Assembly: GCA_938010435.1 (NCBI GenBank)
Contig: CALLUS010000002.1
Location: 124,001-188,000, forward strand
DNA: 64,000 bases
Direction: 5' to 3'
Origin: an uncultured Rhizobiaceae group bacterium
Lineage (GTDB): Bacteria > Pseudomonadota > Alphaproteobacteria > Rhizobiales > Rhizobiaceae
Shown: positions 7,666 to 24,999 of the stretch, piece after piece
Position numbering within the stretch: the stretch's first letter is position 1
How the letters are laid out: every line of letters begins with the position of its first letter
Translations under genes and position numbers: made by a program
Notes under the pieces: generated by a model
The model's input: only the letters and a program-made list of their open reading frames with translations
Told to the model about the DNA's origin: nothing
Database searches by the model: none

Positions 7666-7722
7666 CATCGGGCGCTGGGACGACCCTGCTGTCAAACAAA
7701 TTTTGGGAACCGTGTAGTGAGC

Positions 7723-7753
7723 CACGGACTTTGATACCATATCAAAGTCCGTG
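7723..7753 (+). terminator. Perfect 14-bp hairpin after gap (possible terminator)
   Basis: CACGGACTTTGATA at 7723-7736 is the exact reverse complement of 7740-7753, with a 3-nt loop. It lies about 60 bp past the gap stop. The following DNA is AT-rich but has no run of T, so it is either a weak intrinsic terminator, an mRNA-stabilising 3' hairpin, or a dispersed palindromic repeat. Confidence 0.5.
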
Positions 7754-7845
7754 ATATATTTAGCATGGCACGTTTGTCATATCCAAAAATGCTGCACAGT
7801 CATTATCCGCAGACCGAAGCTCTGTCGTCACACAACGAGAGACCG

Positions 7846-7929
7846 GTAAGACACAAATTGGGTGAAAACGAACCTCACTGCTGAATTGCAATATATATAA
7901 CAAAGCAATTGACTTGGTTTGTGTCTTAC
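7846..7929. promoter_or_regulatory. Spaced 12-bp inverted repeat around the putative TAXI-TRAP promoter (operator pair)
   Basis: GTAAGACACAAA at 7846-7857 is the exact reverse complement of TTTGTGTCTTAC at 7918-7929. Arm centres are 72 bp apart, about seven helical turns, so two bound regulators would face the same side of the DNA. The right arm lies within the palindromic element GTGTCTTACAC (7921-7931). The AT-rich DNA between includes a TTGACT at 7909-7914 that could be a -35 box. The translation start is 40 bp downstream. The regulator is not encoded nearby. The site class (GntR-like) is a guess. Confidence 0.45.
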
Positions 7930-7969
7930 ACCCACACTCCCAACTTGAATTGATCCATGGGAGGAAAAC

Positions 7970-9016: not shown

Positions 9017-9039
9017 TGGTCTGACGTTATACTAAAACT

Positions 9040-9071
9040 AAGTGCCGCCTTTTAAAGGGCGGCACTTTTTT
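9040..9071 (+). terminator. Rho-independent terminator or attenuator between receptor and permease genes
   Basis: AAGTGCCGCC (9040-9049) pairs perfectly with GGCGGCACTT (9058-9067) over an 8-nt loop, and is followed by six T residues ending at 9071. It lies 24 bp after the receptor stop and 55 bp before the permease ATG. Partial readthrough is the usual explanation for a terminator inside a binding-protein operon. Confidence 0.85.
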
Positions 9072-9125
9072 CGACGTTTGCCACTGGCTGTTCCTCATCA
9101 ATATTGCAAGAAGCAAGGTGTTCTA

Positions 9126-11495
9126 ATGTCTGACACCACAGATAGCGTTGACGCCGCAATCGACGACAACACAAATTCAGTGTTTCCAACACGCACGCTT
9201 TATTGGTGCGCGCTGGTATTCGTCATCATTGGAATTATCAACAGCACCCCCACTATACCCGGCTGGGATTCCATGTGGCGGAATTTGACAGGTATTGAAG
9301 ACTTGCGCGTCAGAGCATTCCCGACTGAATGGTTCTATCCAATTGTCTTTTCGCTCATGATGTTCGTGGTCGTGCTTAAACACTCAATTTGGCGCGCTTG
9401 GCGCAACACCAAAGGCGCGGGTCTAGGTCTCTTTCTCGACATCGCATTGATAGCATCTGCAATTGCGATCTCACTAACTTATTTGATTGAAATCGACAGT
9501 GTGTGTCTCATCGATACGCTCAATGGCGATCGCGCGCGTATCATCGCCGCAACGCTAGCTGAAGAAATTCAATTTGCCGAAGATTATGGCTTACCTGTGC
9601 CTGATTCAGTGGACGATCCCCAATGCGTCAACACAACAGGCATTTGGCTTGTGGCCATTGTCGGCATCTCAATGCTCGTCTTCTTGGCTTATAATATCAA
9701 AGTGTGGGGCATGCCTTTGGTTATGGTGTCCCTTGCGATCGCAATTTACACCATCGCCACTGTTTTGGTTTGGTATTTTCACGGCCCCGAGGACATCAAC
9801 AAATATCTGATGACTAAATTGGGAGGGGAACCACGTACTTTTCTCGATGGGCGACCGAACGTTCACGATGCTTTGGTGAACAATGCATCTGGCATGTTGG
9901 GGCGCTTCATGAACGTCATCATGAACATTGTATTTCCGTACATCATTATGGGCGCCATGTTCGGAAAATCAGCTGGTGGTCAATCACTGATCAAGTTGGC
10001 ATTCCGATGGACACGCAATTTGCGTGGCGGGCCGGCTCACGCAGCAATCGTATCTTCGGCGATGTTTGGCACAATCACTGGCGGCCCTGTAACCAACGTA
10101 TTGTCCACTGGCGTGTTGACAATTCCCATGATGTTGAAGCGCGGATTCTCACGGGTGTTTGCAGGCGGAATGGAAGCCGCGGCATCGTCCGGCGGTTCTG
10201 TTATGCCCCCTGTGATGGGCGTTGCCGCATTCATTATGGCGGCTCTGACCGCAGTTCCTTATGGCGACATCATTGTCGCTGCCATCATTCCGGCAGTCGC
10301 CTATTTCTTTTGTCTTTTCCTCTCTGCAATTTTCCAATCGCGAAAACAAGGAATTGAAGCTTATGGAGAGTTCACCGAAGACATGCGGCTGACCCGCACG
10401 GATATTTTGCATCTGATGCAAATTTTCTTGCCGATTATTTTGATCTTGGTTCTACTTTTAACCCCCAAAGACGGCGTGGGTTGTGGACCACTTGGTTGGT
10501 TGTTGGGTGTTGAAACGATCATTGATGGTGAAAAATGCACCGCAACTAACTTGCCTTGGGTGATGCAAATTTTTCAAAACGCTGCTGGTGACGCTGGTGC
10601 CACAGGTTGGTGGGCAGCTGCTTTAGTGATCGTGTTGTTGTTTTTGGACAAAGCATTCCGAGCTAATCCGAGATTGTTGCTCGATGGATTGGCTGAGGCT
10701 GGCATAACAATTTGCACGCTCTATCTCATGTTCCTCGCCGTTACCGTCATCGACGTGTGCCTGAATTTCACGGGCCTTTCCAAATTCGTTGCTATCGACG
10801 TTTTAAGCTTCCTTGAAAACTTGGACATGGGTGGTTCCGGCTCTGCCACATTCCAATTCGTGGCGTTATTTATCACAATGTTCTTGGCAATCTTGTTGGG
10901 CATGGGCATGCCTGCAGTTCCCGCCTACATCAATGTGGCTTTGTTGATGGGACCATTGTTGATCGGATTGGGCATCGCTACATTTACAGCCCACATGTTT
11001 ATCTTCTATTTCGCAGTCGCTTCGGCCATCACACCGCCCGTTGCACTCGCCGCTTTTGCAGCTAGCACCATCACCAAGGCGGAGCCAATGGCGACCGGAT
11101 TCAGTGCAGTTCGATCAGGAATTGTGATGTTCATGATACCGTTTGTGTTTGCGTTTTACCCGGAGCTGCTACTCATTGATCAAGCACTCATCGATCCTGC
11201 AAGTGCAAATGGCGCGCCATTGCCGGGATACGAGAACGGCGTGAGTTATGGTGCACTCGCATGGCTAATGGTGCGATTGATTGTTGCACTTTATTTGATC
11301 GCAAGTGCACTAGCACGATTTGATTCTGCCCGATTGAGTGTGGCTTGGGTTTTCATTCGCATTGGACTCGCGGTTGCAATATTATTCCGCCCGGAAGCAA
11401 TTCACATAAGCGCTTTCGTTGTCGCCGTTGCTCTTTTGATTTGGCACAATATTACAAACCGGAATTCCAACGGTCCTATTACTGCCAGCCCATGA
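9126..11495 (+). CDS. TRAP transporter permease, fused small and large membrane subunits (4TM/12TM)
   Basis: A 789-residue polytopic membrane protein. I start it at 9126 (MSDTTDSVDAAIDDN), preceded by AAGG at proper spacing; the open frame upstream overlaps the terminator and is not plausible. The N-terminal third holds the DctQ-like segments (for example TLYWCALVFVIIGIINS, WLVAIVGISMLVFLAY). The rest is the DctM part with GGQSLIKLAFRWTRNLRGGPAHAA, MFGTITGGPVTNVLSTG, MEAAASSGGSVMPPVMG and LLGMGMPAVPAYI, the glycine-rich hairpin motifs of fused TAXI-TRAP permeases. It imports the receptor's ligand across the inner membrane, probably with Na+. The sulfatase gene follows by 59 bp. Confidence 0.92.
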   Translation: MSDTTDSVDAAIDDNTNSVFPTRTLYWCALVFVIIGIINSTPTIPGWDSMWRNLTGIEDLRVRAFPTEWFYPIVFSLMMFVVVLKHSIWRAWRNTKGAGLGLFLDIALIASAIAISLTYLIEIDSVCLIDTLNGDRARIIAATLAEEIQFAEDYGLPVPDSVDDPQCVNTTGIWLVAIVGISMLVFLAYNIKVWGMPLVMVSLAIAIYTIATVLVWYFHGPEDINKYLMTKLGGEPRTFLDGRPNVHDALVNNASGMLGRFMNVIMNIVFPYIIMGAMFGKSAGGQSLIKLAFRWTRNLRGGPAHAAIVSSAMFGTITGGPVTNVLSTGVLTIPMMLKRGFSRVFAGGMEAAASSGGSVMPPVMGVAAFIMAALTAVPYGDIIVAAIIPAVAYFFCLFLSAIFQSRKQGIEAYGEFTEDMRLTRTDILHLMQIFLPIILILVLLLTPKDGVGCGPLGWLLGVETIIDGEKCTATNLPWVMQIFQNAAGDAGATGWWAAALVIVLLFLDKAFRANPRLLLDGLAEAGITICTLYLMFLAVTVIDVCLNFTGLSKFVAIDVLSFLENLDMGGSGSATFQFVALFITMFLAILLGMGMPAVPAYINVALLMGPLLIGLGIATFTAHMFIFYFAVASAITPPVALAAFAASTITKAEPMATGFSAVRSGIVMFMIPFVFAFYPELLLIDQALIDPASANGAPLPGYENGVSYGALAWLMVRLIVALYLIASALARFDSARLSVAWVFIRIGLAVAILFRPEAIHISAFVVAVALLIWHNITNRNSNGPITASP

Positions 11496-11554
11496 AGCGG
11501 GTTCAAAACTATCGGACGAACCTAAATGACCAATTGTAAAAAGAGCTGATTATT

Positions 11555-13117
11555 TTGTCGAAACGCCCGAACTTTGTTTTCTTTATCACCGATCAACAAC
11601 GCGCCGATTGGTTGGGGTGTTACGGTCACCCAGTGGTTAAAACACCTCACATTGATGCCATCGCAGCGCGTGGAACAAAGTTCGAGAATTTTCATGTGGC
11701 GTCACCCGTTTGTATGCCAAACCGGGCTTCACTGATGACAGGCCGTTATCCGACCCAACACGGTTTACGATACAATGGATGTATCCTTCCGCAACGCGCC
11801 AACACATTTGTGAATGTCTTGGCAGCCAGTGGTTATTCGACGGCTGCAATCGGCAAAAGTCATCTACAACCTATGACCGAAACTGCCCCCATGCGAAAAG
11901 CTGCCAAGCAAACAGGCCCAATTGCCGAGGCTTGGAAGCCGGAACAAGGCGACTATTCACAAGAAGAACCCAGACAGTATCAACCGGATGGGCGCTATGC
12001 ATTTAAAACGCCTTACTACGGGTATCAGCATGTGGATATGGTCACAGGCCATGGCGATAAATGCGGCGGTCACTACGGGCAATGGTTTAGAGAAAATGTG
12101 CCCAACTGGCGCGAGTTGGCGTTGCCTGAAAGTGAGCTTCCTCACAATTATTCCTGCCCCCAAGCATTCCGAACACCAATTCCTGAAGAGTTTTATCCGA
12201 CCGCTTACATTCGTGATCGAACTGTCGATTATCTTACAGCTCACGCTGAAGACGATGAACCTTTTTTCTTGTTTGTTTCATTTCCTGACCCTCACCATCC
12301 GTTCAATCCGCCCGGACGTTATTGGGATATGTATTCGCCTGACGAATTTGATGTAAATTTGCCATTTGAAGCGCACCAAAATCCATCTCCTCCCATGCGC
12401 TGGTTGAAAGAAGGTTGGGAGACGGATCGTCCACAAATCAACCCACAGACAGCAACCATGACTGACAACAGCAAGTTGCAAGAAATTATGGCCTTAACCG
12501 CAGGCATGGTCACCATGATCGACGATGCTGTTGGAGCTGTGACAGCGAAGTTGAAAGAGCTGGGCTTGGACGACAATACAGTGGTGGCCTTCAACTCGGA
12601 CCACGGCGATTATCTCGGTGATTTCAACATGATTTTGAAAGGCGCGTTACCATTTAAGTCCATCACGAGAGTGCCCTTTATTTGGTCAGACCCCGATATA
12701 CAAAAAGCTCATTCAAATCATGCGCTTGCTTCAACAACTGATATCGCAACAACCGTTTTGGCGAGAGCCGGCATCGAACCCTATAACGGAATTATGGGAC
12801 AATCGCTCCTAGACAATCTGGAAGGTTCGTCCGATCTTCGTGATGAACTGCTGATCGAATACAATGATGGCGGCCCTCGCCTCGGCTTTGAAAAACCAGC
12901 TCGAGTACGTTCTTTGTTGACGAAAAAATATCGCTACACCCATTATCGTGATGAAGATTGGGGGGAACTTTACGATCTTAAAGCTGATCCGAACGAAACA
13001 CACAATCTGTGGAATGACCCTGACTTGCTTGCTGAAAAATTACGTTTGTCAGTTCAATTGAACAACCAATTGAGCCATCTGATGGATGATAGTCCCCTCT
13101 CCAATCGATTGGCTTAA
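11555..13117 (+). CDS. Sulfatase (formylglycine-dependent, alkaline phosphatase superfamily)
   Basis: A 520-residue type I sulfatase with a TTG start at 11555 after AAGAG. Key residues: metal-binding Asp in FFITDQQRADWLGCYG (near 13), the modification motif CMPNR (Cys53, consensus CxPxR) that must be converted to formylglycine by a maturase, the second part of the sulfatase signature near TGRYPTQHG, FPDPHHPFNPP, and NSDHGDYLGD with the second metal ligands. No signal peptide is visible, so it is probably cytoplasmic. That fits hydrolysis of a small sulfate ester brought in by the TRAP system upstream. It resembles arylsulfatase A or choline-sulfatase types. No formylglycine-generating enzyme is encoded in the window. 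Substrate unknown. Confidence 0.88.
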   Translation: MSKRPNFVFFITDQQRADWLGCYGHPVVKTPHIDAIAARGTKFENFHVASPVCMPNRASLMTGRYPTQHGLRYNGCILPQRANTFVNVLAASGYSTAAIGKSHLQPMTETAPMRKAAKQTGPIAEAWKPEQGDYSQEEPRQYQPDGRYAFKTPYYGYQHVDMVTGHGDKCGGHYGQWFRENVPNWRELALPESELPHNYSCPQAFRTPIPEEFYPTAYIRDRTVDYLTAHAEDDEPFFLFVSFPDPHHPFNPPGRYWDMYSPDEFDVNLPFEAHQNPSPPMRWLKEGWETDRPQINPQTATMTDNSKLQEIMALTAGMVTMIDDAVGAVTAKLKELGLDDNTVVAFNSDHGDYLGDFNMILKGALPFKSITRVPFIWSDPDIQKAHSNHALASTTDIATTVLARAGIEPYNGIMGQSLLDNLEGSSDLRDELLIEYNDGGPRLGFEKPARVRSLLTKKYRYTHYRDEDWGELYDLKADPNETHNLWNDPDLLAEKLRLSVQLNNQLSHLMDDSPLSNRLA

Positions 13118-13441: not shown

Positions 13442-13458
13442 TGGCTGGGGCGGCAGGG
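13442..13458 (+). repeat. Left attachment-site repeat
   Basis: TGGCTGGGGCGGCAGGG duplicates, in the same orientation, the last 17 bases of the tRNA-Gln gene at 22440-22456. Identity stops right after it (CC here, AT there). It lies 112 bp before the integrase start. The 300 bp to its left, back to the sulfatase stop, shows no convincing gene. Confidence 0.85.
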
Positions 13459-13569
13459 CCAAAAAAGGAGCAAGCGGCAACGACTTGATCTCATTACGTT
13501 ATTGTTTTTTCTATCCTTTTTAAGTTCATTGTAACGACTTGTTGTTACAAGAAACCGATGGAAGATAGT

Positions 13570-15420
13570 ATGCCCACCAACCTTGCAAAACGACCTGACA
13601 GTCAATCGTACTACGCTCGAATTGCAGTTCCAATTGAGTTCCAAAACACCATAGGCAAGAAAGAAGTTTGGCGATCACTGCGTACCAACGATTTTAAACA
13701 GGCAAAGCAACGGTTGCCAAAAGCACTGGCAGACATTCAGCAATCTTGGCGCGCAGCAAAAAACCGTTCGGTCAATCTCGTAGTTGAAAATGAAATTGAC
13801 GAGCATGAAGCGGGCGAACTGACAGACGAACTTCAAGCGTTGATTGTGGGAATGGTTTACGAAAACGACCTTACCGCCGATATGGAACAACGAAATCGCG
13901 CACCTTCATTCAAAGACCTCATTCAAGCATCAGGTGGAAGTTTATCTACCTCAAGTTCACTTGACGATCTGGCAGGACAGTTAGCCAGCGGCGAATGCGC
14001 AGACCTTGAAGGAGTTCTGTTTGAGCGAGCAAACGTCAGCAATCCCGTTCATCGCGATGCTCGCCGCACCCTCTTGCGGTTGAGCCTTTCAGCCAATGAC
14101 GCTTCGCTTGTGCATGCGCAAATCGACAAGTTCTTGAAAGTTCTGAATATAGAATTGGACCAAGACGCGGAGCGCTACAAAGTTCTCGCAAACCATGTTG
14201 TGCGAGCCAAACTTGCAGCGCTACAAAAGATGGATGAGCGCGATGAAGGTCTATGGAATGCACAGCCATCTGATCCAGTTGTAAACGTCTTTCGTGAACA
14301 ATTCACGCCGAGGCATAAACAATCACTGGCACTCGCCGACAGCACCCCAACAAATTTTCTGGATGCGATGTCCTTTTATGAAACATACGCCGACGACAAC
14401 CCTAGGGGTGTCAGCGCCGATACACTTCATGAAGGGCGTAAATCCGTAGCAATGCTGCTTGAGTTCAAAGGCGCGGCAGATGTAGAGAACATTTTTGATC
14501 GCCAAACGCTCCGAGACTGGCGAAATTTGTTAAGGAACCTTCCGCTACGTGCAAATGAAAAATCATGCTTCAAAGGGATGACAATTGCAGAAATCGTCGA
14601 AGCCAACCGCTCGCTTGGCCAACCTGTTGTTACCGCACGGGTAGTCAACAAGCACCTCAACCACGTTAGTGCGTTCTGCAACTGGTTGGTGGATGAAGGC
14701 CACCTGACTTCAAACCCAATGAATGGCCTCCGCATTCACGAAAAATTCGATCCCGAAAACCGACTCCCGTTTACCACCACTCAACTAAACCAAATATTTG
14801 CATCACCACTTTTTCATAGGTGCAAAAGTCGGTCCAAGTCTCACTTGATTGGCGAGGTAATGATCCGCGACCACTGGTATTGGTTGCCGTTGTTGGCACT
14901 CTTCACAGGTGCGCGTCTTGGTGAACTTGCTCAACTATTGGTCAGTGACGTTGAAAAATTTGGAGACCGCTGGATTATCCACATTACTGAAAAGGGTGGA
15001 TGCGGGAAGGTTATCAAGAACAAATCTTCCGAGCGCATGATCCCCGTGCATAGGAGATTGATCGATCTCGGTCTTCTCAACCACATCAAGAGCCTCAATC
15101 GCAAAACTAGCACGCAATTGTTTCCAGAAGTTACGCGTAACAGTCGAGGACAAATCGCGGCGACGTTCTCTCGCTCCTGGGGGAAGCACCTCGAAAACAT
15201 TGGTGTAAAGTCGGACGCATCAGTCAACTTTCACTCTTTCCGCCACACAGTTGCCGACGAACTGCGGCGCGCGGGCTTTGCCGACGATCAAATAGGCACA
15301 CTTTTGGGACACAGTAAGCAGGGAATGACCTCTCGCTACGGAGTTTTGAACGAAGGAACTGTCGAACAGCGAGCAAAGATGGTGGACGCACTCGAATACA
15401 AAGGCTTGGCACTCCCATAG
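13570..15420 (+). CDS. Tyrosine recombinase / integrase with DUF6538-like N-terminus
   Basis: About 616 residues, long for the family. I prefer the ATG at 13570 (MPTNLAKRPDSQSYYARIAVP) because GGAAG lies just upstream; an ATG at 13558 adds four residues. The N-terminus, with YYARIAVPIEFQNTIGKKEVWRSL and TNDFKQAKQ, resembles the DUF6538 or AP2-like arm-binding domain. A core-binding region follows at about 260-400. The catalytic domain has Arg449 in TGARLGELAQL, a lysine in ITEKGG, His555-x-x-Arg558 in HSFRH, His581 in LLGHSKQ and the nucleophile Tyr590 in MTSRYG. All catalytic residues are present, so it is likely active. It sits beside the left att repeat and should catalyse insertion into the tRNA-Gln 3' end. 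Confidence 0.93.
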   Translation: MPTNLAKRPDSQSYYARIAVPIEFQNTIGKKEVWRSLRTNDFKQAKQRLPKALADIQQSWRAAKNRSVNLVVENEIDEHEAGELTDELQALIVGMVYENDLTADMEQRNRAPSFKDLIQASGGSLSTSSSLDDLAGQLASGECADLEGVLFERANVSNPVHRDARRTLLRLSLSANDASLVHAQIDKFLKVLNIELDQDAERYKVLANHVVRAKLAALQKMDERDEGLWNAQPSDPVVNVFREQFTPRHKQSLALADSTPTNFLDAMSFYETYADDNPRGVSADTLHEGRKSVAMLLEFKGAADVENIFDRQTLRDWRNLLRNLPLRANEKSCFKGMTIAEIVEANRSLGQPVVTARVVNKHLNHVSAFCNWLVDEGHLTSNPMNGLRIHEKFDPENRLPFTTTQLNQIFASPLFHRCKSRSKSHLIGEVMIRDHWYWLPLLALFTGARLGELAQLLVSDVEKFGDRWIIHITEKGGCGKVIKNKSSERMIPVHRRLIDLGLLNHIKSLNRKTSTQLFPEVTRNSRGQIAATFSRSWGKHLENIGVKSDASVNFHSFRHTVADELRRAGFADDQIGTLLGHSKQGMTSRYGVLNEGTVEQRAKMVDALEYKGLALP

Positions 15421-16422
15421 TCTGCCTAACCGTTATGAGCCAACAGATCAGCCCGACTAAAGCGCAGACCAGCGCACCGAAAGTTTAGTTCTGTGAACAA
15501 GTGTCGGCAGAAAATTTTATATTTGGCGTGTCGTTTTTGAAGGTTTTCAGACGGCTTTACGTTCAACCTACGTCAGTTTTTCCATTCAAAATGGTAGAGA
15601 TTCCTTTCAAAAAAACTCTCGAACAAATGTGTCAAAACACCCCTGTTGAGAGCCTATTTTCTACCCCTTTGAAAACTGCGTTTTTGGAGAAGAAAATTTC
15701 AATGACCGTTCGTCCAATCACTAGAATGAGAGTTCGCGTCGCAAATTTATATCAATGATTTCAAAACACTATTTAAATGGCGATAGATTTCGCAGATTTT
15801 CGATTCGAACCAAATTCCTCAAAATCTATTTCGAAATTGACTGACCTATCATGATTTGTTGTTGGTAGATTTATGATATGGGGTCAAAATTGTGATATAA
15901 ATTCGATAGATTGAGCCAAATCTACCAAAATATAACATCCATTTATCACGCATCTACCACAAATTAACAGTTGAATATTTGGTATACTTGTGTCTGTAGC
16001 GTTGTCGCAAATGGACTTGAATTGCCATTGTATTGAGACCAATCGAGGTGCTTGAACTTCCCCTTTCCAAATTCAATTCGTGTGATGGCGAGGTGTTCTT
16101 TTAAGCCTCTCGCTCATCCAAGCCATCAACTTCACATCAAAGAATCGACAGAGGACACCACACAGAGCAGATTGTTACTTTTGGCATAACAACTAGATGC
16201 TCGCTCACGAACGCTCCCTATGGCTCTATGAGACCTCAAACTGGCCTTTTCATACACGACCTGAACTTATCCATGATAATGGTTCAATATCCGACTTATA
16301 GAAAATGCAGGACAGACGTTCTGCTTACGAAATCGCATACCGATGTCGGTATTCACCATTGATGACAAATAGCATTAAAGCACCGCCGCTCATGCTCCTG
16401 CGTCTAATTGGAAAAGGTAACT
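15421..16422. other. Gene-free AT-rich region of the element with ATCTACCA repeats
   Basis: About 1 kb without a convincing coding frame; the longest candidate, an 85-codon frame at 15501-15758, has no ribosome site and no recognisable composition. The octamer ATCTACCA occurs at 15920-15927 and 15952-15959 and, inverted, at 15863-15870, in an otherwise AT-rich setting. The two direct copies are 32 bp apart, about three helical turns. This could be a binding region for an element-encoded protein (excisionase, Rep or regulator) or an origin. No function is shown. Position next to the integrase is the only context clue. Confidence 0.4.
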
Positions 16423-16926
16423 TCAAGGGCACGATAACTCGACAACACGAACCTTAAACTCTGCGTCTTTTCTGACAGGCGCCTGCATCAGATGCATTAT
16501 TAAGCCACCAACTTCGCAATTTCCTGCATTGAACGGCTGACCTTGAGAAATCGTCCCGTTCCAAGTTCGTCCAGAACTTGAAGACATGGTGGCAGTGACG
16601 ACCTGTTGCATTAACACAACAATTTCATTGGTCTCGGCGTGCCTCGTAGTAAGTTTTGAATCGCCCCAACTCAACGAAATCAACGTACCATTTTGGAATT
16701 TTGGATCATCAATCGGATAACTGCGTTTTTCTTTTATAGAATACGTTGATCCAAGTGATATGCCGCGATCGGGAGAAGGGATGATCGAATCATTGTAAAA
16801 GCCTCCCCACAACATCGGCAAGGAATATGCAAATACAGCAACAATCGCGCCACCAACGATGATCTTGAACCATTCGTCGTATATCACCTTCAGTGCTTTG
16901 TTTTTCAGCTTTGTTAAGTCCTGCAT
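16423..16926 (-). CDS. Unknown single-pass membrane protein downstream of the restriction gene
   Basis: A 167-residue protein I do not recognise. It begins MQDLTKLKNKALKVIYDEW (basic, helical), followed by one membrane segment IIVGGAIVAVFAYSLPMLWGG at about residues 22-42, then a roughly 120-residue beta-rich soluble domain with GTLISLSWGD, LMQQVVTATMSSSSGRTW and a C-terminal VRVVELSCP. Two cysteines near the end (CEVGG and SCP) suggest a periplasmic domain with a possible disulfide. It is on the same strand as the methylase and nuclease and starts 97 bp after the nuclease stop, so it may be a third gene of that operon. A role in defence, superinfection exclusion or element maintenance is speculation. 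Confidence 0.6.
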   Translation of the reverse strand: MQDLTKLKNKALKVIYDEWFKIIVGGAIVAVFAYSLPMLWGGFYNDSIIPSPDRGISLGSTYSIKEKRSYPIDDPKFQNGTLISLSWGDSKLTTRHAETNEIVVLMQQVVTATMSSSSGRTWNGTISQGQPFNAGNCEVGGLIMHLMQAPVRKDAEFKVRVVELSCP

Positions 16927-17023
16927 ACTTCAACGCTCAATGAAGGTTTAGACCGACCACCAATATCAACAAGCGGAAAATTGAAATTCGGTGAACTATT
17001 GTTTAACCTCAAATAGGCGACCA

Positions 17024-17941
17024 TTATTGTTTGTTCTCCCACCATTGCAGTGTGTGCGGGATTTCATTGCCGAAGAAATCTTCAAAATCCATGATATTTG
17101 TGAATTTGGGAAACTTCTGTTTTATCTCCTTGTAGGTCACAAGAGTCATATTGTGATTCTTCATCAAGGTAAGAACGTTTTCCGTAATGCTTTCATCCAG
17201 TGTCAGCAGATGAATGCTTGGAATATTTGTTCTGTTCAGTTCTTCTACAACTTCTTGCCAACGCTCGCGAATGGTCGTCTTCATTGTGGCGATTATGCAG
17301 CGCGCGCGATTTTCGTTGAAGGCCTCCATACTTGGGACGACCCCATCTACCTTTTTGCCCAGTCCTTTTTTTGCAAACGTCTTCTGCCCTAAATGTGATT
17401 GTGAGTCGTAAGGAATATCCAATCGTCTCATAAGTTGGTCGATTATGGCTTCAAATTCGCTGCCAGCACGTGAGCGACGTGAGTTGGTTTGGCTTTTGGA
17501 CAGTTCGTAGAAATAAGGAAAAATTCGACCAGAATAATCTTGAAATATTTCCGCAATGACTTTTTGATAAGAGCCATCTTCTATGGATTCTGACAGTTTT
17601 TTTACAACGTCTTCTGTCAACATCGCTTCTAAAATTTCGTGAGGTACATCCCGTTCTTCAATTAAAACGCCAATGATTTCAGCGAAAAAGGTGATTTCAT
17701 ATTCAACAAAAGTTTTCCAAACGCCTTCCCGTACTCGGCCGATGAAACTCGAAACTGAATTAATGTCGATTATTTCATTGTGCCGATCGATCTCTTCTTT
17801 GAAGAAGTATTCTACGGACTCTGTAGGAGACGGAATCGTTTTCTTGCGTACAATTCCAATTTGCTTACGCCACCATTTTATTTCGTCTTTATCGAGTTCC
17901 AGAACAGCCTTAAGACCGTCTGCTGTTTGGACAATTTGCAA
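17024..17941 (-). CDS. Type II restriction endonuclease, EcoRII C-terminal / PspGI-like
   Basis: About 305 residues from a TTG at 17941 that has GAGG eight bases upstream; this puts the start 45 bp after the methylase stop. An in-frame ATG at 18130 would give 368 residues but needs 145 bp of overlap inside the methylase. The diagnostic block is SRRSRAG (154-160), as in EcoRII and PspGI, followed by a PD-(D/E)xK-like core: Asp199 in GKKVDGVVPS and TMKTTIRERWQEV (Lys221), equivalent to KTTCKDRW of EcoRII. HLLTLDESITENVLTLM and KFPKF complete the domain. PspGI is 272 residues, so the shorter form fits. The family cleaves CCWGG or CCNGG-type sites, consistent with the adjacent Dcm-like methylase. 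Confidence 0.85.
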   Translation of the reverse strand: MQIVQTADGLKAVLELDKDEIKWWRKQIGIVRKKTIPSPTESVEYFFKEEIDRHNEIIDINSVSSFIGRVREGVWKTFVEYEITFFAEIIGVLIEERDVPHEILEAMLTEDVVKKLSESIEDGSYQKVIAEIFQDYSGRIFPYFYELSKSQTNSRRSRAGSEFEAIIDQLMRRLDIPYDSQSHLGQKTFAKKGLGKKVDGVVPSMEAFNENRARCIIATMKTTIRERWQEVVEELNRTNIPSIHLLTLDESITENVLTLMKNHNMTLVTYKEIKQKFPKFTNIMDFEDFFGNEIPHTLQWWENKQ

Positions 17942-17985
17942 TTGATTGGCCTCAAAACAAATGGAGATTTGATCAGACTTATATC

Positions 17986-19242
17986 TTATGTTTTGATATA
18001 GGGCAGCATTTCTTTTGAGATTGCCGAGATTACTGGAACGGCAACGGAATTTCCAAATTGTCGATAGTTTTGCACATCCGAAACCGCATCCAATACGAAA
18101 TTCTTGGGAAACCCTTGGATCGCGGCACATTCCTTTGGCGTTAATTTTCGCGGATTTCTATTTATGTCGCTCTGATCGATTAAAATTTCACTACCGTCCT
18201 TATAATAGCGAGCACTTATTGTGTTACACGACAGGCTATCATGATTGAATAGACTATATCCAAATCCGTTTCCTTTTGCTCTGTGCTCACTCTTTCGGCG
18301 TTTGTGGCCATTCCAAAGGCGGTCTGAAAGTGTGTATTTGGGATCAACTGACTGATTTTTTTCCAAGACATCACCCAGCTTAGTACTCGCTGTACGCTTT
18401 TCAAGTTTGTCTAATATTTGTTTGGCCAATCCGCATTTTTCAGCAGCACTGACTTTGTTCCGATTGAAGCCAATAATGTAGACTCGCTCTCGATTTTGGG
18501 GGACTCCAAAATTTGACGCTTTTAGAACTCGATAATCAACATCGTAATCAAGTTTCGTGGACAGGCTAGAGCGCGCGCTGTCGGACATTGGAACATCGAC
18601 TGGGATGTCTGGCAAATCATCACCACGTAAAATCGAAAGGATTGTTTTTAGTGTATTTCCCTTATCATGCCCTTTCAATTGCTTTACGTTTTCCAACAGA
18701 AAGGCCTTGGGCTGATGGTGTGAAATAATTCTTTGAATTTCAAAAAACATCGTTCCACGAGTGTCGAAAAACCCTCGTTTTAGACCGGCTTGAGAAAATG
18801 CTTGGCAAGGAAAGCCTGCCAGTAGCAAGTCATGCTGCGGAATGGCTTCGGATGGAAATTGGGTGATGTCTCCGTCAGGCAGTTCACCAAAATTTGCAGC
18901 ATACGTTTTCTTGGAAAACTTATCCCACTCGGATGTAAAAACGCACTTCCCACCAATCTGTTGAAACGGCAATCGAATACCACCGATCCCTGCAAATAGG
19001 TCTATAAACGAAAAAACATGAGGTTTGGATGAGCGTTTAAACGGAACTTTTAAATGAAGGCTTTCTATGGCAGATAATTTTGCAGGCGAGGGTTGATGCT
19101 CTCCTCGTTCCCAACCACCTACCGTCCGCTCTCCCCCTTCTCGCAATCCCAAAAACTCTGCAAACTCTCTTTGATTTAAACCTAACGCTTCACGTCTTTT
19201 TTTAATTGTTGCGCCGAAATCATCAATGCACGTTGTTTTCAT
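17986..19242 (-). CDS. DNA (cytosine-5) methyltransferase with N-terminal HTH (Dcm / SsoII-like)
   Basis: A 418-residue methylase starting MKTTCIDDFGATIKKRREA. Residues 10-60 form an XRE-type helix-turn-helix (GLNQREFAEFLGLREGGERTV). The methylase follows: motif I DLFAGIGG (81-88), motif IV GFPCQAFSQAG with catalytic Cys146, motif VI FLLENVKQLK, motif VIII QNRERV, target region with GFGYSLF and ARYYKDGSEILI, and motif X RQFGNSVAVPV. The target region resembles Dcm and M.EcoRII, so CCWGG or CCNGG is the predicted site. In M.SsoII the N-terminal HTH represses the methylase's own promoter; here GGATAAACTCC (19294-19304), about 50 bp upstream, is a possible operator. It protects the element's host from the nuclease at 17024. 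Confidence 0.93.
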   Translation of the reverse strand: MKTTCIDDFGATIKKRREALGLNQREFAEFLGLREGGERTVGGWERGEHQPSPAKLSAIESLHLKVPFKRSSKPHVFSFIDLFAGIGGIRLPFQQIGGKCVFTSEWDKFSKKTYAANFGELPDGDITQFPSEAIPQHDLLLAGFPCQAFSQAGLKRGFFDTRGTMFFEIQRIISHHQPKAFLLENVKQLKGHDKGNTLKTILSILRGDDLPDIPVDVPMSDSARSSLSTKLDYDVDYRVLKASNFGVPQNRERVYIIGFNRNKVSAAEKCGLAKQILDKLEKRTASTKLGDVLEKNQSVDPKYTLSDRLWNGHKRRKSEHRAKGNGFGYSLFNHDSLSCNTISARYYKDGSEILIDQSDINRNPRKLTPKECAAIQGFPKNFVLDAVSDVQNYRQFGNSVAVPVISAISKEMLPYIKT

Positions 19243-19670
19243 CCGGCCCGCCAATTTTAAGAATCCTGCCCACAAATCGCAGGGCACGTTATAGGATAAA
19301 CTCCAAATTAGGTAAAGTACCACCTGCTATCGGTGCATCGCTTTGAAAACCCTTCACTCAAGCCAATTTTCGGCAATCCTACCTCTGGCCACAATGAAAA
19401 AATTCACTCCCTACGCGACGTAAGCGACAAAATGCATAGGACTTGAGTTATCTAACAAACTGGAGGGTGTGGATTAGGCTCGTGAGACAACATTTCTTTG
19501 GCATCAAGGTGTTCTTAGTAAGCACATACACCTCTAGGGCTTCCTTATTGTTCACCTTGGAGCCAAATTGGGATGCTCATCCAAACTCTGATTTTGGGAT
19601 CGGTCGATTCAGTCGCGATTGCCGCGAACTCTATATGCAGTGTCTTGCCCTCAAATATCGATTAAGACCG
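19243..19670. other. Gene-free spacer holding the R-M promoter region
   Basis: This 428-bp stretch lies between the methylase start and the HUH-like gene's stop. A 98-codon plus-strand frame (19443-19739) overlaps the HUH-like gene on the opposite strand and lacks a ribosome site. I see the imperfect palindrome GGATAAACTCC at 19294-19304 in the expected place for autoregulation by the methylase HTH, and nothing else of note. Confidence 0.4.
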
Positions 19671-20579
19671 CTACAGATGATCACTTTTGATCTGATGGTC
19701 GGCAATTTGCGCGCCCTTTCTGATCAGGCGCTCCGCTGACGAGGGTTCTATTTCGCGCATCAATCGCGCGACCTTCTTCCATTCCAACGACGAAAAGTCT
19801 CTCGATTGCCGTAGTGCATTCTCCGAACCAATTTCGTCGAACAATTTTCGCCCCTTTGCCGGTAGTGCATGGGATGAGTTCATGATCGATTTGAAATACT
19901 GATGGTTGCGATCAGCACTGTCTGGAAAGCGCCGCTGTACCTCTGAACCGTTGTACCACGCCGGAATATCTTTGTCGGTTAGGTTTAGAAGCCGCTTGGT
20001 CTTCCCCACATGCTTGGTACTATATTCCATTGCCCCCATCGCATGGCCTACCACAGTGAACTTTGATCCCGTCGCTCTATTGTGCGCGTCACAAGCAATA
20101 ACCTTCACGGCATATTCATCCTGCCACGTTCGCTGGCTGGGTATTGATCGATCAATTCGACCTGTAAAAACTGCTTTCAATCTGGCTTCAAGATCACTTG
20201 CTTTGAACTCTGTGCCGTTCAACGCCAAAACTCCGTGTGCGTGAACAAGCACATCATTGTAGCCGATTTTCTGGTTAGCGTTCGGATTTTGCTTGGGATT
20301 AGCCTCAAACACCAGTACGCGTGGTACCCCCCTCAAGTGTTCGCTGAATGCCTTGTTGAGCCAAGTACGTGGGTCATTGTTGGCTCCCAGTGAGTTAAGG
20401 TCTGCGACTGAAATTCCACACGAGAAAAAATGACAGTTACCAATTCGCTTCAAGGCTCCTGCCATAAACCACAATTTGGTTCTTGTAGGTTGTTTGTTCC
20501 AAGTCTTCCCAAAGCAGATGGGTAACGCTTCTCCCGCGACTATCGCTCCATTATTTCGTTGGATGTCGAGTGTGGTCAT
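19671..20579 (-). CDS. Putative HUH-type replication initiator / relaxase-like protein
   Basis: About 302 residues from the ATG at 20579 (MTTLDIQRNNGAIVAGE); a frame to 20630 exists but has no ribosome site. The N-terminal half has the layout of rolling-circle Rep or relaxase domains: FFSCGISVADLN as a possible first strand motif, NDVLVHAHGVLAL with a His-x-His (113-115) like the HUH metal-binding pair, and GAMEYSTKHVGKTK with Tyr186 and Lys189, matching the catalytic YxxK. The C-terminal third is charged and unassigned. If real, the protein would nick the element's origin and could support rolling-circle replication or mobilisation. The family assignment rests on three short motifs read by eye, so it is tentative. 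Confidence 0.55.
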   Translation of the reverse strand: MTTLDIQRNNGAIVAGEALPICFGKTWNKQPTRTKLWFMAGALKRIGNCHFFSCGISVADLNSLGANNDPRTWLNKAFSEHLRGVPRVLVFEANPKQNPNANQKIGYNDVLVHAHGVLALNGTEFKASDLEARLKAVFTGRIDRSIPSQRTWQDEYAVKVIACDAHNRATGSKFTVVGHAMGAMEYSTKHVGKTKRLLNLTDKDIPAWYNGSEVQRRFPDSADRNHQYFKSIMNSSHALPAKGRKLFDEIGSENALRQSRDFSSLEWKKVARLMREIEPSSAERLIRKGAQIADHQIKSDHL

Positions 20580-20713
20580 GTTTCCAAACGCCTCATAAAC
20601 AAAGGCCCATCTGACCCACCATAATTGCACTTAAGAACAAACCTTGTGAATAGCCTATGAAGGTGAATATTTCATTATGCATTTCAACGGATTACTGGTT
20701 TCGCGGCAGTTAT

Positions 20714-20748
20714 TTTTGGAGTGAGTGCCGGTAGAACAATCTCCAAAA
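20714..20748. repeat. Inverted repeat upstream of the HUH-like gene
   Basis: TTTTGGAG (20714-20721) and CTCCAAAA (20741-20748) form an 8-bp stem with a 19-nt loop. It lies between the resolvase stop and the HUH-like gene start. It could be a weak terminator for the resolvase or a stem at a nicking origin; no known nick-site consensus is visible. Confidence 0.35.
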
Positions 20749-20781
20749 TAAATAGGGCGAAAAAATTTGTTCGACTTTAGG

Positions 20782-21351
20782 TCACGCTGCATCTTTCAAA
20801 ATTCGAAACACGCTTGCTCTGCTGATGCCAGTGGCAACGACAATCTGCGGAACTGTGTTTCCTTGCCGTTTTAGTTCAATCACTTCCTCACTCTTGGCGC
20901 GGGCTGTTGGCGCCCTCCCCTTATATTTGCCAGCGGCTTTGGCCTTTGCAATTCCTTCGCGTTGGCGTTCGAGCATTAGGTCGCGTTCAAACTCTGCTAT
21001 TGCGCCGAGCACCGTTAGCATTAATTTCCCATTTGCCGTGTCGGTACTCAATTCAGGATTGGCAAGGAAGCACAATTGAACGCCAGCGCTGCGAAGCCTT
21101 GTTGTAATATCAACAAGATCGCCGACAGAACGTGCTAACCGATCAATTTTGGTGACAATCAACTTGTCACCTTCACGAAGGTAGTCGAATGCTGCCTCTA
21201 GTTGCGGCCTTTCTCTGGCCACTGATGACAGTTCTTCTTGGAATATCTTCGCGCAGCCATATGCCTTGAGATCGCGCAACTGCGCGTCCAAGCCCGCTGA
21301 TTGGTCGGTTGTACTAACACGAGCGTATCCGACGATTGCCGAGGTGGTCAT
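20782..21351 (-). CDS. Serine recombinase (resolvase/invertase family)
   Basis: A 189-residue small serine recombinase. The ATG at 21351 has AAGGA seven bases upstream and gives MTTSAIVGYARVSTTDQSAG, with the catalytic Ser in GYARVST. ELSSVARERPQLEAAFDYLREGDKLIVTKIDRLARSVGDL carries the conserved arginines, and EFERDLMLERQREGIAKAKAAGKYKGR leads into a C-terminal HTH (VPQIVVATGISRASVFRIL). Length and order match Tn3-type resolvases and Pin/Gin invertases. It probably resolves element multimers or cointegrates, or inverts a segment, acting on the repeats just upstream at 21390-21481. No transposase accompanies it. Confidence 0.92.
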   Translation of the reverse strand: MTTSAIVGYARVSTTDQSAGLDAQLRDLKAYGCAKIFQEELSSVARERPQLEAAFDYLREGDKLIVTKIDRLARSVGDLVDITTRLRSAGVQLCFLANPELSTDTANGKLMLTVLGAIAEFERDLMLERQREGIAKAKAAGKYKGRAPTARAKSEEVIELKRQGNTVPQIVVATGISRASVFRILKDAA

Positions 21352-21389
21352 TTTTGCATCCTTGAGTGTCATTGTTGTCTTAGACTTTG

Positions 21390-21481
21390 TGAGACACACA
21401 GTCTCAAATAGCAAGGACACTCATGTGAGACCTATCCGTCTGGTTAATCAGTAGTGTCACACAGGCTTGGTCTAGTGAGAC
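21390..21481. promoter_or_regulatory. Res-like repeat region upstream of the resolvase gene
   Basis: TGAGAC recurs at 21390-21395, 21426-21431 and 21476-21481, with an inverted copy GTCTCA at 21401-21406, so the first site is TGAGAC-N5-GTCTCA. Multiple inverted half-sites within about 90 bp directly upstream of a small serine recombinase gene is the layout of a res site, which also autoregulates the gene. The crossover dinucleotide cannot be assigned by eye. Confidence 0.5.
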
Positions 21482-21623
21482 TGCCAGCCGCGTCCGCATG
21501 GGTACTGTCCTTAGAATGGACCCACCCACAGACGAAACCGACTTCAACGGTCAGGACATCAATGGCGTGGCTGCTGACCGTATTGTCATAGGCCTGCGGA
21601 CAATCAGAAGGTGTTGCAATGAA

Positions 21624-22022
21624 TCAACGTATTGGATTCCATCCCTTGCATTTATGCTCATGCATTTCGATGTCGTCCACATCATTGGCGACCCATACTG
21701 TCTCTCCACGAAAATGAAGGACGTGGGTTTTCAGACCTGTGTAGGCGCCATATCTATTTTTTGCATTGAAACGAGCACAGACGTGCCAGGCTGGTACGCG
21801 GCCTTTGTTGATCAAACCCGTCCAAACACTACCTTTCATCGATTCTGATAAAGCGAAACTCTGCACGCTGTAGGGATCAAACAAAGTTTTTTCCATCCAA
21901 GCACGAGTAGCCTTCTCTGGTTCTGCCGGAGCGGCAGCATAAGTAACAGCCGTTTTCGTGGAGGTGGTGGCGTTGCACGCGGCAAGCGAAATCATCGCGA
22001 CAAAAATGAAACATTTCCTCAA
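21624..22022 (-). CDS. Small predicted lipoprotein of the element
   Basis: About 132 residues with a TTG start at 22022, chosen because GGAG lies eight bases upstream and the protein then begins MRKCFIFVAMISLAACN, a short type II signal with lipobox LAAC (Cys16); a GTG at 22043 is an alternative. The mature part has an Ala/Thr-rich linker followed by a compact domain with WMEKTLFDPYSVQSFALS, GRVPAWHVCARFNAKNRYGAYTG and VWVANDVDDIEMHEHKC. The phrase FDPYSVQ...VCARFNAKNRYGAYTG recalls small proteobacterial lipoproteins of unknown function. It lies inside the att boundaries, so it is either element cargo or was captured from elsewhere. Role unknown. Confidence 0.65.
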   Translation of the reverse strand: MRKCFIFVAMISLAACNATTSTKTAVTYAAAPAEPEKATRAWMEKTLFDPYSVQSFALSESMKGSVWTGLINKGRVPAWHVCARFNAKNRYGAYTGLKTHVLHFRGETVWVANDVDDIEMHEHKCKGWNPIR

Positions 22023-22439
22023 TTCGAAGTCTCCTAGATACACAACGCAACTTGTATCGGACTTAAGGTTGAAAATTTCTTAATTACATACGTTTTAATT
22101 GCTTAAATATTACTTTATCAATTTTTTGCTTCATTATTTTGATTATTATGCATCTATAAATTGATTATAGACTTCTGATGGTCCACCATCATGCGAAATA
22201 TTCGTTATTGCATTGAACCGCAAGAATATACTTGACCAAATGACAGACTAGTCGAGGTATCGCGACGACACACGCCCCAAACCAAGACAACTATATTCTT
22301 TTCGGCTTTGATGATTTCATGCACAGAAAATTTGTTACGTCAGACTGTTACGAACCAAGAATGCAGACTCTAAGAAGAACAGCATCAAGCAATTGATATA
22401 AAACAGAATTTATCACTATTCGCTGTAGGCGAGAATAAC
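22023..22439. other. AT-rich gene-free segment before tRNA-Gln, with a 16-bp palindrome
   Basis: No coding frame is convincing. TGATGGTCCACCATCA at 22176-22191 is a perfect inverted repeat (7-bp arms, 2-bp centre), a typical operator shape. The rest is strongly AT-rich. This is the right end of the element, next to the att copy in the tRNA gene. Confidence 0.4.
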
Positions 22440-22456
22440 TGGCTGGGGCGGCAGGG
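22440..22456 (+). repeat. Right attachment-site repeat within the tRNA-Gln 3' end
   Basis: TGGCTGGGGCGGCAGGG covers the encoded CCA end, the 3' acceptor strand and the 3' side of the T stem of the minus-strand tRNA. It is identical to 13442-13458. Integration therefore left the tRNA gene complete. Confidence 0.85.
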
Positions 22457-22514
22457 ATCGAACCTGCGAATGGCGCTACCAAAAAGCGCTGCCTTACCAC
22501 TTGGCCACGCCCCA
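22440..22514 (-). tRNA. tRNA-Gln (anticodon TTG)
   Basis: The minus strand folds as a 75-nt tRNA: acceptor TGGGGCG with CGCCCCA, D arm GCC/GGC, anticodon stem GCGCT/AGCGC around loop TTTTGGT (anticodon TTG, reading CAA), five-base variable region, T arm GCAGG-TTCGATC-CCTGC, discriminator G and encoded CCA. It is transcribed leftwards into the integrated element, whose right att copy is its 3' end. Confidence 0.97.
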
Positions 22515-22662: not shown

Positions 22663-24999
22663 TCAGCTTGCCACACGCGCTTTCATATCTTCGACTGCAA
22701 ACAAAACCCGTTCAGGTGTGGCCGGAGCATCCAAATTGGCGCACAACTTCCCTTCAGAAATTGAAGACACTGCATCGCGCAGTGCCAACCAAACCGAAAT
22801 GGCCAACATGAGAGGTGGTTCACCAATCGCTTTAGATCTGAAAACGGTTTCTTCCCGATTGGGTTGATCATCCAAAATTTCCACATTGAACTGCGGTGGT
22901 ACGTCGCGCGAACCGGGAATTTTGTAGGTAGAAGGCCCAACTGTTTTCAATCGACCGGCATCGTCCCACCATAACTCTTCGCAGGTGAGCCAACCCATGC
23001 CTTGCACAAATGCACCTTCCACTTGCCCAAGGTCAATCGTTGGATTGAGCGGCTTTCCGCAATCTTGAACAATATCGGCGCGGAGGCATCTGTTTTCGCC
23101 AGTCAGCGTATCGATAACAACTTCTGCAACCGCCGCACCGTAAGTAAAATAGTAGAAAGGTCTTCCCTTGAGTTTCTCACCATCCCAATGGATTTTTGGC
23201 GTGGCGTAGAATCCCGTTGCAGAGAGCGAGATGCGTTTCATCCAACATAATTTTGCAAGTGCAGCAAAGCTGATAGATTTTCCCTTCGCTGAGACTGTTC
23301 CGTTCCCGAAAACAACATCAGTCTCTCGAGCGGCCAGTTCCGTGGCTGCAACTTCGACCATGCGTTGGCGGATTTCTGATGCTGCGTTGAAGGCGGCAGC
23401 GCCGTTTAAATCAGACCCAGACGAAGCAGCTGTCGCAGATGTATTTGGGACTTTGCTGGTGGTGGTGGCCGTAATTTTTATGCCCGCCAAAGCAATGCCG
23501 AATACATCAGCGACGACCTGAGCAACCTTTGTATAAAGCCCCTGCCCCATTTCTGTACCGCCGTGGTTCAAGTGAACTGATCCATCGGTATAGACATGAA
23601 CCAGCGATCCGGCCTGATTGAGTGTCGGTAGGTTGAACGAAATTCCAAACTTGACCGGCATCATTGCCAGTCCCTTTTTCAGAATTTTATTTTCTGCATT
23701 GAACTTATCGATTGCGGCGCGGCGTTCATCCCATTCCGCATTTTCCATCACCTGTGCAACCACATCTGCAATTCGATTGTCTTCAACAAGTTGTTCGTAA
23801 GGTGTTTGCTCGCCAGTATCCGGTCCATAATAATTGGCAGCACGTACAGTATTGGGATCTAGCCCCAATTCCCTTGCTGTGCGGTCTATTATGGCTTCAA
23901 TCGCGAGAATGCCTTGAGGGCCACCAAACCCGCGAAATGCAGTGTTTGAAACAGTATTGGTTTTAGCTGCAAACCCTGTGAAATCTGAACTCGGTATATG
24001 GTAGCAATTCTCCAAGTGGGTGAGCGCGCGAGTAACAACCGGGCCGGATAAATCTGCCACGTGGCCGGAATTTGCGATGGCATCCACTTTCAACCCTGTG
24101 AAGCGACCGTTTTTTTCAACACCGACCTCGTAGTTCATGACAAACCCATGACGTTTTCCGGTTGCCGCCATATCCACATCGCGGCGCATTCTGAAGCGGC
24201 AGGGTTTACCCGTTCTCTGCGCTGCAAGTGCAGCAATTGCCGCAATAATAGTCGCCTGACTTTCCTTGCCACCAAATGCACCGCCCATACGACGGACTTG
24301 CACATCCACATTATGGTTATTCACGTCCAAGGCGAGTGCCACGTGGCTTTGAACTTCCGTTGGGTGCTGGGTCGAAGACCAGACAGTCATCTCGTCGTCT
24401 TCACCGGGCAGTGCATAAGCCACATGGCCTTCTAAATAGAAATGATCTTGCCCGCCCATTTCGACCCTGCCGGACAGTTTATGAGGCGCTGCATCTATTG
24501 CTGTTTTTGCATCGCCGTCTTTGAGATTTTGTGTGGCGCAGGTTTTTAAATCATTGGCGAAAGCCTCTTCGATATCAAAACACGGTTCGACGGGTTCAAT
24601 ATCCAGCTCTACCAATCGAGCTGCTCGCACTGCTTCCGCGAAAGAAGTGGCGGCCACGGCTCCCACAATTTGCCCCACATGCTCCACAATTTCTTCTGCG
24701 AAAATAGGTTCATTTTTGAGAATAGGCGCGACTTCGTTTTTACCGGGAATGTCGTCAGCAGATAGAAAACACACGGCTCCCGAGGTGGCAAAGGCCTTTG
24801 AAGCGTCTATTGATTTGATTTTTCCTGCCGCAACAGGCGACAGCACAGGCGCAATATGAAGCGTATTAGGTAAATCCGGCATGTCATCGATATAGATCGC
24901 TTCGCCGCGCACGTGGCGGCGTGCACTGTCATGGGCATGCCCTTTTCCGACCTCCGAGCGTTCAACCTTGAGGCTGTTCAATTTCCCGGCGACACTCAT
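22663..24999 (-). CDS. xdhB: Xanthine dehydrogenase, molybdopterin-binding subunit
   Basis: A 778-residue XdhB of normal length. It has the aldehyde oxidase/xanthine dehydrogenase hammerhead domain at the N-terminus (HVRGEAIYIDDMPDLPNTLH) and molybdopterin-binding motifs RRMGGAFGGKESQ, NTAFRGFGGPQG, GGTEMGQGLYTKV and AIGEPPLMLAIS, the last with the catalytic Glu region. With XdhA it oxidises hypoxanthine to xanthine and xanthine to urate in purine breakdown. Its ATG overlaps the xdhA stop in an ATGA, so translation is coupled. The xdhC maturation gene that often follows is absent; the next feature downstream is tRNA-Gln and then the integrated element. Confidence 0.96.
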   Translation of the reverse strand: MSVAGKLNSLKVERSEVGKGHAHDSARRHVRGEAIYIDDMPDLPNTLHIAPVLSPVAAGKIKSIDASKAFATSGAVCFLSADDIPGKNEVAPILKNEPIFAEEIVEHVGQIVGAVAATSFAEAVRAARLVELDIEPVEPCFDIEEAFANDLKTCATQNLKDGDAKTAIDAAPHKLSGRVEMGGQDHFYLEGHVAYALPGEDDEMTVWSSTQHPTEVQSHVALALDVNNHNVDVQVRRMGGAFGGKESQATIIAAIAALAAQRTGKPCRFRMRRDVDMAATGKRHGFVMNYEVGVEKNGRFTGLKVDAIANSGHVADLSGPVVTRALTHLENCYHIPSSDFTGFAAKTNTVSNTAFRGFGGPQGILAIEAIIDRTARELGLDPNTVRAANYYGPDTGEQTPYEQLVEDNRIADVVAQVMENAEWDERRAAIDKFNAENKILKKGLAMMPVKFGISFNLPTLNQAGSLVHVYTDGSVHLNHGGTEMGQGLYTKVAQVVADVFGIALAGIKITATTTSKVPNTSATAASSGSDLNGAAAFNAASEIRQRMVEVAATELAARETDVVFGNGTVSAKGKSISFAALAKLCWMKRISLSATGFYATPKIHWDGEKLKGRPFYYFTYGAAVAEVVIDTLTGENRCLRADIVQDCGKPLNPTIDLGQVEGAFVQGMGWLTCEELWWDDAGRLKTVGPSTYKIPGSRDVPPQFNVEILDDQPNREETVFRSKAIGEPPLMLAISVWLALRDAVSSISEGKLCANLDAPATPERVLFAVEDMKARVAS

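Follow-up and report, generated by a model that had tools for sequence, protein, structure and literature searches.

An element integrated at the tRNA-Gln gene

The 64,000-nt stretch analysed here, hereafter the window (contig CALLUS010000002.1 of assembly GCA_938010435.1, positions 124,001 to 188,000), comes from an uncultured Rhizobiaceae group bacterium and contains a 9.0-kb element integrated at the 3′ end of a tRNA-Gln gene. The element is bracketed by an exact 17-bp direct repeat, TGGCTGGGGCGGCAGGG, at 13442-13458 (plus strand, distal copy) and 22440-22456. The second copy forms the final 17 nt of tRNA-Gln(ttg) (22440-22514, minus strand), as a preliminary description of the locus had stated. 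With up to one mismatch allowed, the sequence occurs at these two places only in the whole 3.57-Mb genome, so that the further attachment copy envisaged in that description, which would have moved the boundaries, is absent from the genome. A chance origin of the repeat was rejected, as about 0.0003 exact copies are expected from base composition on both strands.

Seven genes lie between the repeats, a count upheld by open reading frame (ORF) and family scans: a tyrosine integrase, a 167-aa protein, an EcoRII-type restriction-modification pair, an HUH-motif protein, a serine resolvase and a phrog_2320 protein. The fall in coding density relative to both flanks that had been noted earlier was recovered, with a coding share (reckoned by hand) of ∼72% in the element vs ∼94% in 5293-13117 and ∼100% in 22663-26411. 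The GC content is 0.451 in the element vs 0.485 in the remaining window; 9-kb pieces of the window go as low as 0.450, so GC content by itself argues only weakly for the element.

The site was compared with other species of the genus, at species level with one genome each. An xdhB match is present in 13 of the 15 genomes of the genus, own genome included, and nine of the 12 xdhB loci in other species carry tRNA-Gln in the xdhB flank (L023, L024 and L025 do not; loci are given as L numbers and genomes as G numbers). The last 15 nt of the tRNA-Gln are single-copy in all nine (9-18 kb each) and double in the window, which identifies this gene as the insertion site. No relatives with these genes in synteny but without the repeats were found among those examined.

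The preliminary description had also predicted a sulfatase gene about 0.4 kb from the tRNA at an empty site. This was not borne out: the other-side neighbour, within 1 kb of the tRNA-Gln, is GAPDH (named by eye) in seven of the nine species. A GAPDH with 47% identity lies ∼2 kb from the tRNA-Gln locus in G356, the tRNA-Gln neighbourhood of the closest relative, G359 (XdhB 88%), differs, and the flank past the distal repeat shows no conservation among the same-genus relatives.

A block with a TRAP transporter (by eye) and the sulfatase (7970-13117) sits between GAPDH and the distal repeat. It has no recognised ends and is not found at the tRNA-Gln place in the same-genus relatives examined, which suggests a second change or insertion, separate from the element.

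Gene content of the element

The tyrosine integrase (13558-15420, plus strand, 620 aa) combines DUF6538 (2.9e-14) and Phage_integrase (2.7e-14) domains, starts 100 nt inward of the distal repeat and reads toward the tRNA. The motifs TGARLGEL, HSFRH, LGH and RYG are all present, in agreement with the complete catalytic set described before. An AT-rich non-coding stretch follows (15421-16422). It contains a perfect inverted repeat of 11 nt (15862-15872 / 15918-15928) as well as an 18-nt direct repeat (83%) at 15920 and 15952; speculatively, this stretch could be a replication origin.

The remaining genes are all on the minus strand. The 167-aa protein (16423-16926, from the ORF call) matches no family in Pfam, PHROGs, NCBIfam or PADLOC scans. 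The EcoRII-C type restriction endonuclease (17024-18130; Pfam PF09019, 1.2e-21; PADLOC REase_II, 6.2e-38) has an uncertain start and overlaps the end of the C5 DNA methyltransferase gene (17986-19242; 1.6e-95), whose ORF reaches 19323 with an ATG at 19242 and whose product has an N-terminal helix-turn-helix. The HUH-motif protein (19671-20579; ORF to 20630, likely ATG at 20579) is followed by the serine resolvase (20782-21351; ORF to 21420, ATG at 21351), an assignment supported by PF00239 (2.8e-43) and phrog_125 (7.3e-60). Last comes a 139-aa protein (21624-22043) that matches phrog_2320, of unknown function, at 4e-12.

The element ORFs scanned against the same four libraries gave no match to a capsid, terminase, portal, relaxase or conjugation family, which bears out the earlier statement that conjugation and capsid genes are not visible. 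The PHROGs structural families have no match in the seven element proteins, and tblastn with six phage structural query proteins found nothing in the element. A complete prophage was rejected on the lack of capsid, portal and terminase genes, and an integrative and conjugative element on the lack of conjugation families.

The HUH-motif protein has the order of a replication initiator

The HUH-motif protein carries HAHG followed by YSTK, both at sites that its homologues also conserve. An alignment of 11 homologues shows an invariant first histidine, glycine and tyrosine, with the second histidine kept in 10 of 11 and the lysine in nine. Three of the 11, the window protein not among them, match Pfam REP_ORF2-G2P (PF23343), the best at 1.6e-5 and below the Pfam cut-off. 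The protein of one relative, L104, matches phrog_3584, a "replication initiation protein", at 9.8e-6. In PHROGs, the window protein matches only phrog_12672 (function unknown), at 0.0068. The HUH assignment made earlier is upheld by the shared positions.

An HxH motif followed by the catalytic tyrosine is the order of rolling-circle Rep proteins, and relaxases have another order. The window protein is likely, though not proven, to be a Rep-type HUH protein. The preliminary description had left open whether the element replicates or is mobilised; because the conserved tyrosine comes after HxH and no relaxase family was matched, the role leans to replication.

These data bear directly on the idea of an integrative mobilisable element, in which the HUH protein would be a relaxase and a conjugative helper would carry the excised circle. 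An HUH motif and an integrase without transfer genes are a general fit to such an element. The tyrosine position is that of a Rep and not of a relaxase, the weak family matches of the homologues are to replication proteins, and the library scans returned no relaxase family, although a divergent relaxase could escape them. A tblastn search with an HUH query gave one chance-level piece on a MobF gene (E 0.6), which does not count as evidence. We therefore consider a mobilisable element unlikely.

In structure prediction, the window protein alone gave a poor fold (pLDDT 32), and a relative modelled with four alignment rows a mediocre one (pLDDT 57.6). AAV Rep and parvovirus nuclease chains appeared among the insignificant fold matches of the relative and were not counted.

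The integrase, resolvase and HUH genes recur with other cargo

Close relatives of the HUH-motif protein were found neither in the genome-contig collection, plasmids, phages and viral contigs nor among 347 genomes of the order at E 0.001; against plasmids at E 10, four unrelated pieces were the only matches. The bridge to relatives is one weak match (L073) among 385 genomes of the class, to G463 (metagenome-assembled genome BP5.bin101), whose HUH protein is 26% identical to the window's, with HxH and Y-xx-K aligned. A search from the G463 protein matched seven of 179 genomes at E 0.01, G463 included, and a 5-row profile matched seven of 357, with the own genome and G463 included; a 3-row profile scan of genomes returned three loci, all already known. 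Two other queries found no relatives in viral contigs, phages or plasmids.

These searches gave 18 matches besides the own genome and G463 repeats: six full-length relatives (L079, L087, L088, L089, L102 and L104), two weak or partial ones (L090 and L103) and 10 that were dropped. Rejected candidates include L077, within a DNA polymerase III alpha-like frame (by eye), L072, L075 and L076, with internal stops, L074, which is short, and L084/L091, unmatched by a 7-row HUH profile; L078, L086, L100 and L101 were left out of the counts.

All six full-length relatives are from the same class and have a tyrosine integrase along with the HUH gene. Together with the window, the integrase is present in 7/7 loci, a resolvase catalytic domain in 5/7 (4/6 relatives; not L087 or L102), tRNA-end repeats in 5/7 (not L087 or L089) and defence-type cargo in 5/7 (4/6 relatives; not L087 or L104). 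The four relatives with tRNA-end repeats are at tRNA-Gly (7.1 kb), tRNA-Gln (10.5 kb), tRNA-Met (10.5 kb) and tRNA-Gln (15.7 kb). As a control, 1471 ORFs from 205 kb of other sequence gave no match to the HUH and resolvase profiles and one to the integrase profile.

The smallest of the four, L079 in G463, lies between exact 47-bp copies of the tRNA-Gly end. Besides the integrase, resolvase and HUH genes, it contains a SIR2 plus kinase gene and one that is PP2C-like (by eye). The spacing between resolvase and HUH genes is 185 nt here, 190 nt in the window and 370 nt in L088. The L079 integrase has no match to solved structures at 0.001 and was named from 35% identity to the integrase of L087, which itself matches XerC-like and XerD structure chains.

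L088 (Alphaproteobacteria metagenome-assembled genome Dive100_bin3.50) occupies tRNA-Gln(ttg) between 31-nt repeats (84%) that share an identical 17-nt end. It encodes an SMC-type ATPase (LmuB-like), a DUF3223 protein (HamC2-like), the HUH protein, a resolvase and an AbiEii-like product. Its DUF6538 integrase, which shares 27% identity with that of the window, occupies the tRNA-distal end, as its counterpart in the window does. L102 (G461:C1:1590000-1609900; 1851-12422) lies between exact 50-bp repeats at tRNA-Met and contains a CRISPR array (66-bp period), cas2, cas1, Cas9, a resolvase-like protein, the HUH protein and an integrase that matches Int and Xer structure chains. The largest, L104/L105, lies between 18-bp repeats at tRNA-Gln(ttg) and encodes the HUH protein, a resolvase, terminase, portal (weak match), head, adaptor and tape-measure proteins, and an integrase that shares 28% identity with that of the window; the place and orientation of the integrase are the same in the window, L088 and L104/L105.

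Of the other two relatives, L089 encodes a DUF6538 integrase, a resolvase, DarTG, a type IIG enzyme and the HUH protein. L087 (Magnetospirillum sp. UT-4), on a 5-kb contig with no visible cargo, encodes a resolvase-like protein, the HUH protein and an integrase. Both the integration of the window element and the recurrence of this three-gene kit are well supported.

Two side observations concern these loci. In L088, a 25-nt near-repeat (92%), TTGTGTGTGAG, occurs twice, just within both element ends (5608-5632 and 15947-15971); these copies are perhaps integrase arm sites. In L087, 38 nt identical to tRNA-Arg(ccg), confined to its 5′ half, adjoin the integrase at 3412-3449.

The genomic setting of the relatives also bears on the possibility of an integrating plasmid, a self-replicating circle spread mainly by natural transformation or chance transduction and without a specific helper. 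Small plasmids commonly combine a Rep-type HUH protein with a resolvase, and the element would fit this pattern. Three HUH queries found no relative in 72,556 plasmid records, and the relatives with known ends are chromosomal, which makes this explanation very improbable.

Integrase relatives include phage-like elements at the same tRNA

The window integrase was matched at 1e-60 or better in 12 of 397 genomes of the order, own genome included, and 17 further stretches were fetched, weaker matches among them. The 7-row HUH profile matched four of the 17 at 2e-5 or better (L107, L110, L113 and L114), each time adjoining portal, capsid and terminase genes; such genes are present in seven stretches in all (also L109, L115 and L117). 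Portal and capsid genes also occur in L052, outside the 17. No lysis or tail-fibre gene was noticed in partial scans of the seven.

Seven of the 17 stretches contain a tRNA-Gln. When five stretches were tested for repeats, L107, L109, L110 and L116 had tRNA-Gln-end repeats 15.6-17.4 kb apart and L111 had none. The repeats enclose 15.9-17.4 kb in the phage-like elements L107, L109 and L110, and the phage-like relatives of 15.6-17.4 kb carry a tape-measure protein.

Three further integrase loci were noticed. L116 (2392-18012) is a 15.6-kb tRNA-Gln element with an integrase of the same family, two resolvase-profile matches and type I restriction-modification (by eye), and no match to the 7-row HUH profile. 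In L053 (G363:C7:180000-199000), a same-family integrase ∼34-37% identical to the window's adjoins a type I CRISPR-Cas-like locus (by eye) from 8543 onwards, with no tRNA in the 19 kb. In L108 (2216-16877), a same-family integrase adjoins a methyltransferase, a Vsr-like nuclease and an AbiE-like pair (all by eye).

The phage-like loci raise the possibility that the window element is a reduced prophage of the 16-17-kb type that lost its structural genes, gained restriction-modification and is now immobile. The integrase family, the tRNA-Gln target and HUH proteins are indeed common to both. In the window, the frames for integrase, resolvase and HUH protein are uninterrupted and of full length, and similar small elements recur with other cargo and at other tRNAs, a pattern that decay by itself would not produce. 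Reduction of a prophage is an improbable account of the locus.

Proposed life cycle of the element

By a narrow balance of the evidence, we favour the interpretation that the locus is a tRNA-Gln integrative element of a loose alphaproteobacterial family, defined by a kit of tyrosine integrase, small serine recombinase and Rep-type HUH protein with exchangeable defence cargo, that replicates as a rolling circle and is transferred by a helper, perhaps a tailed phage. Its own DUF6538-type recombinase would have inserted the element into the tRNA-Gln 3′ end and, judging from families and motifs, would excise it as a circle at the 17-bp core. The HUH protein, from its motifs, would nick the circle and drive rolling-circle replication, and the resolvase would presumably resolve circle multimers. 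The EcoRII-type pair is predicted to protect the host, and the circle could then leave with the helper.

A phage helper is suggested because related integrases, tRNA-Gln repeats and HUH proteins occur in the 16-17-kb phage-like elements; transfer in phage particles is accordingly proposed as a hypothesis. A bolder and tentative version, which we hold to be rather doubtful as a whole, is that these are undescribed alphaproteobacterial phage satellites: tRNA-integrated circles of 7-10 kb with their own HUH Rep and defence cargo up to Cas9 CRISPR, packaged by 16-17-kb HUH-bearing phage-like elements with the same tRNA-Gln core.

Several observations weigh against the favoured interpretation. Only the integrated state of the window element was seen, with no circle, same-species empty site or transfer. 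The window HUH protein alone matches no family in Pfam, NCBIfam or PADLOC, its identity to the homologues is low (∼14-26%), and fold searches with the model of the relative gave no significant match. Some HUH copies may be altered or inactive, to judge from their residues: L110 has glutamate in place of the lysine after the tyrosine, and L114 has glutamine for the second histidine and arginine for that lysine. L087 and L102 are the two loci lacking a resolvase catalytic domain, and L102 has its resolvase-like and HUH genes in reversed order. In L089, resolvase and HUH genes are not adjacent and neither a tRNA nor an end repeat was found, and two of the eight HUH loci examined (L090 and L103) gave no integrase or resolvase match in the stretch fetched.

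The integrases of L079, L087 and L102 belong to another branch, unmatched by the 6-row integrase profile, so that the kit has been combined with more than one integrase and with tRNA-Gln, tRNA-Gly and tRNA-Met. Trees of integrase and HUH proteins are compatible with one or several origins. The structural proteins of L107 and L110 have no match at 1e-8 to L104/L105, and one common helper or phage lineage is therefore unsupported.

The recurring kit provides a searchable signature for small alphaproteobacterial islands without capsid or conjugation genes and predicts circles that are traceable in reads. The 16-17-kb phage-like elements at the same tRNA become candidate helpers, and L102 suggests that even CRISPR immunity may travel as the cargo of a small mobile element. 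The movement of small islands without capsid or conjugation genes is treated as an open question in passages of PMC11389934.

Comparison with known systems

The preliminary description had called the gene combination unusual and had assigned it to no class. The first part stands in so far as no paper describing the integrase, resolvase and HUH kit was recognised among the matches listed in the open-licence PubMed Central literature (subscription papers and most preprints lie outside this scope), and no paper on "DUF6538" was found there; the second is tempered by the recurrence of the kit with other cargo and partly at other tRNAs. As far as these searches reach, the locus is a small integrative element with defence cargo whose kit is unreported.

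Islands at tRNA genes that carry defence systems and a tyrosine integrase are a general kind with which it can be compared. The window element shares the tRNA site, integrase and defence cargo with them and differs in the recurring resolvase and HUH kit of its family. Actinomycete integrative elements of the pSAM2 type combine a tyrosine integrase at a tRNA with a rolling-circle Rep. The window element likewise has a tRNA-site tyrosine integrase and a putative Rep-type protein, but it has no match to an FtsK-like Tra protein and its host is of another phylum.

Capsid-forming PICIs are among the satellite families named in passages of PMC11389934. By name rather than by definition, the comparison holds for the phage-like relatives of 15.6-17.4 kb, which have head and packaging genes and an integrase; those relatives also encode a tape-measure protein, and the window element, unlike them, has no capsid genes.

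PICMI of Vibrionaceae, as portrayed in passages of PMC10803314, have a 6.1-kb prototype with 17-bp direct repeats, an integrase and no capsid-remodelling genes. The same passages describe replication by rolling circle, helper-mediated packaging and a defence cargo that includes type II restriction-modification, and give alpA and a primase as mandatory features and fis as the site. Membership of the window element was rejected: AlpA has no match among nine element ORFs scanned, the DUF3987/DUF5906 primase none among the element ORFs scanned, and the site is tRNA-Gln, not fis. The window element differs further in its resolvase and HUH protein and in its bacterial class. Small size, 17-bp repeats, an integrase, the lack of capsid-remodelling genes and restriction-modification cargo are common to both, and the PICMI satellites are the nearest working analogue of the element.

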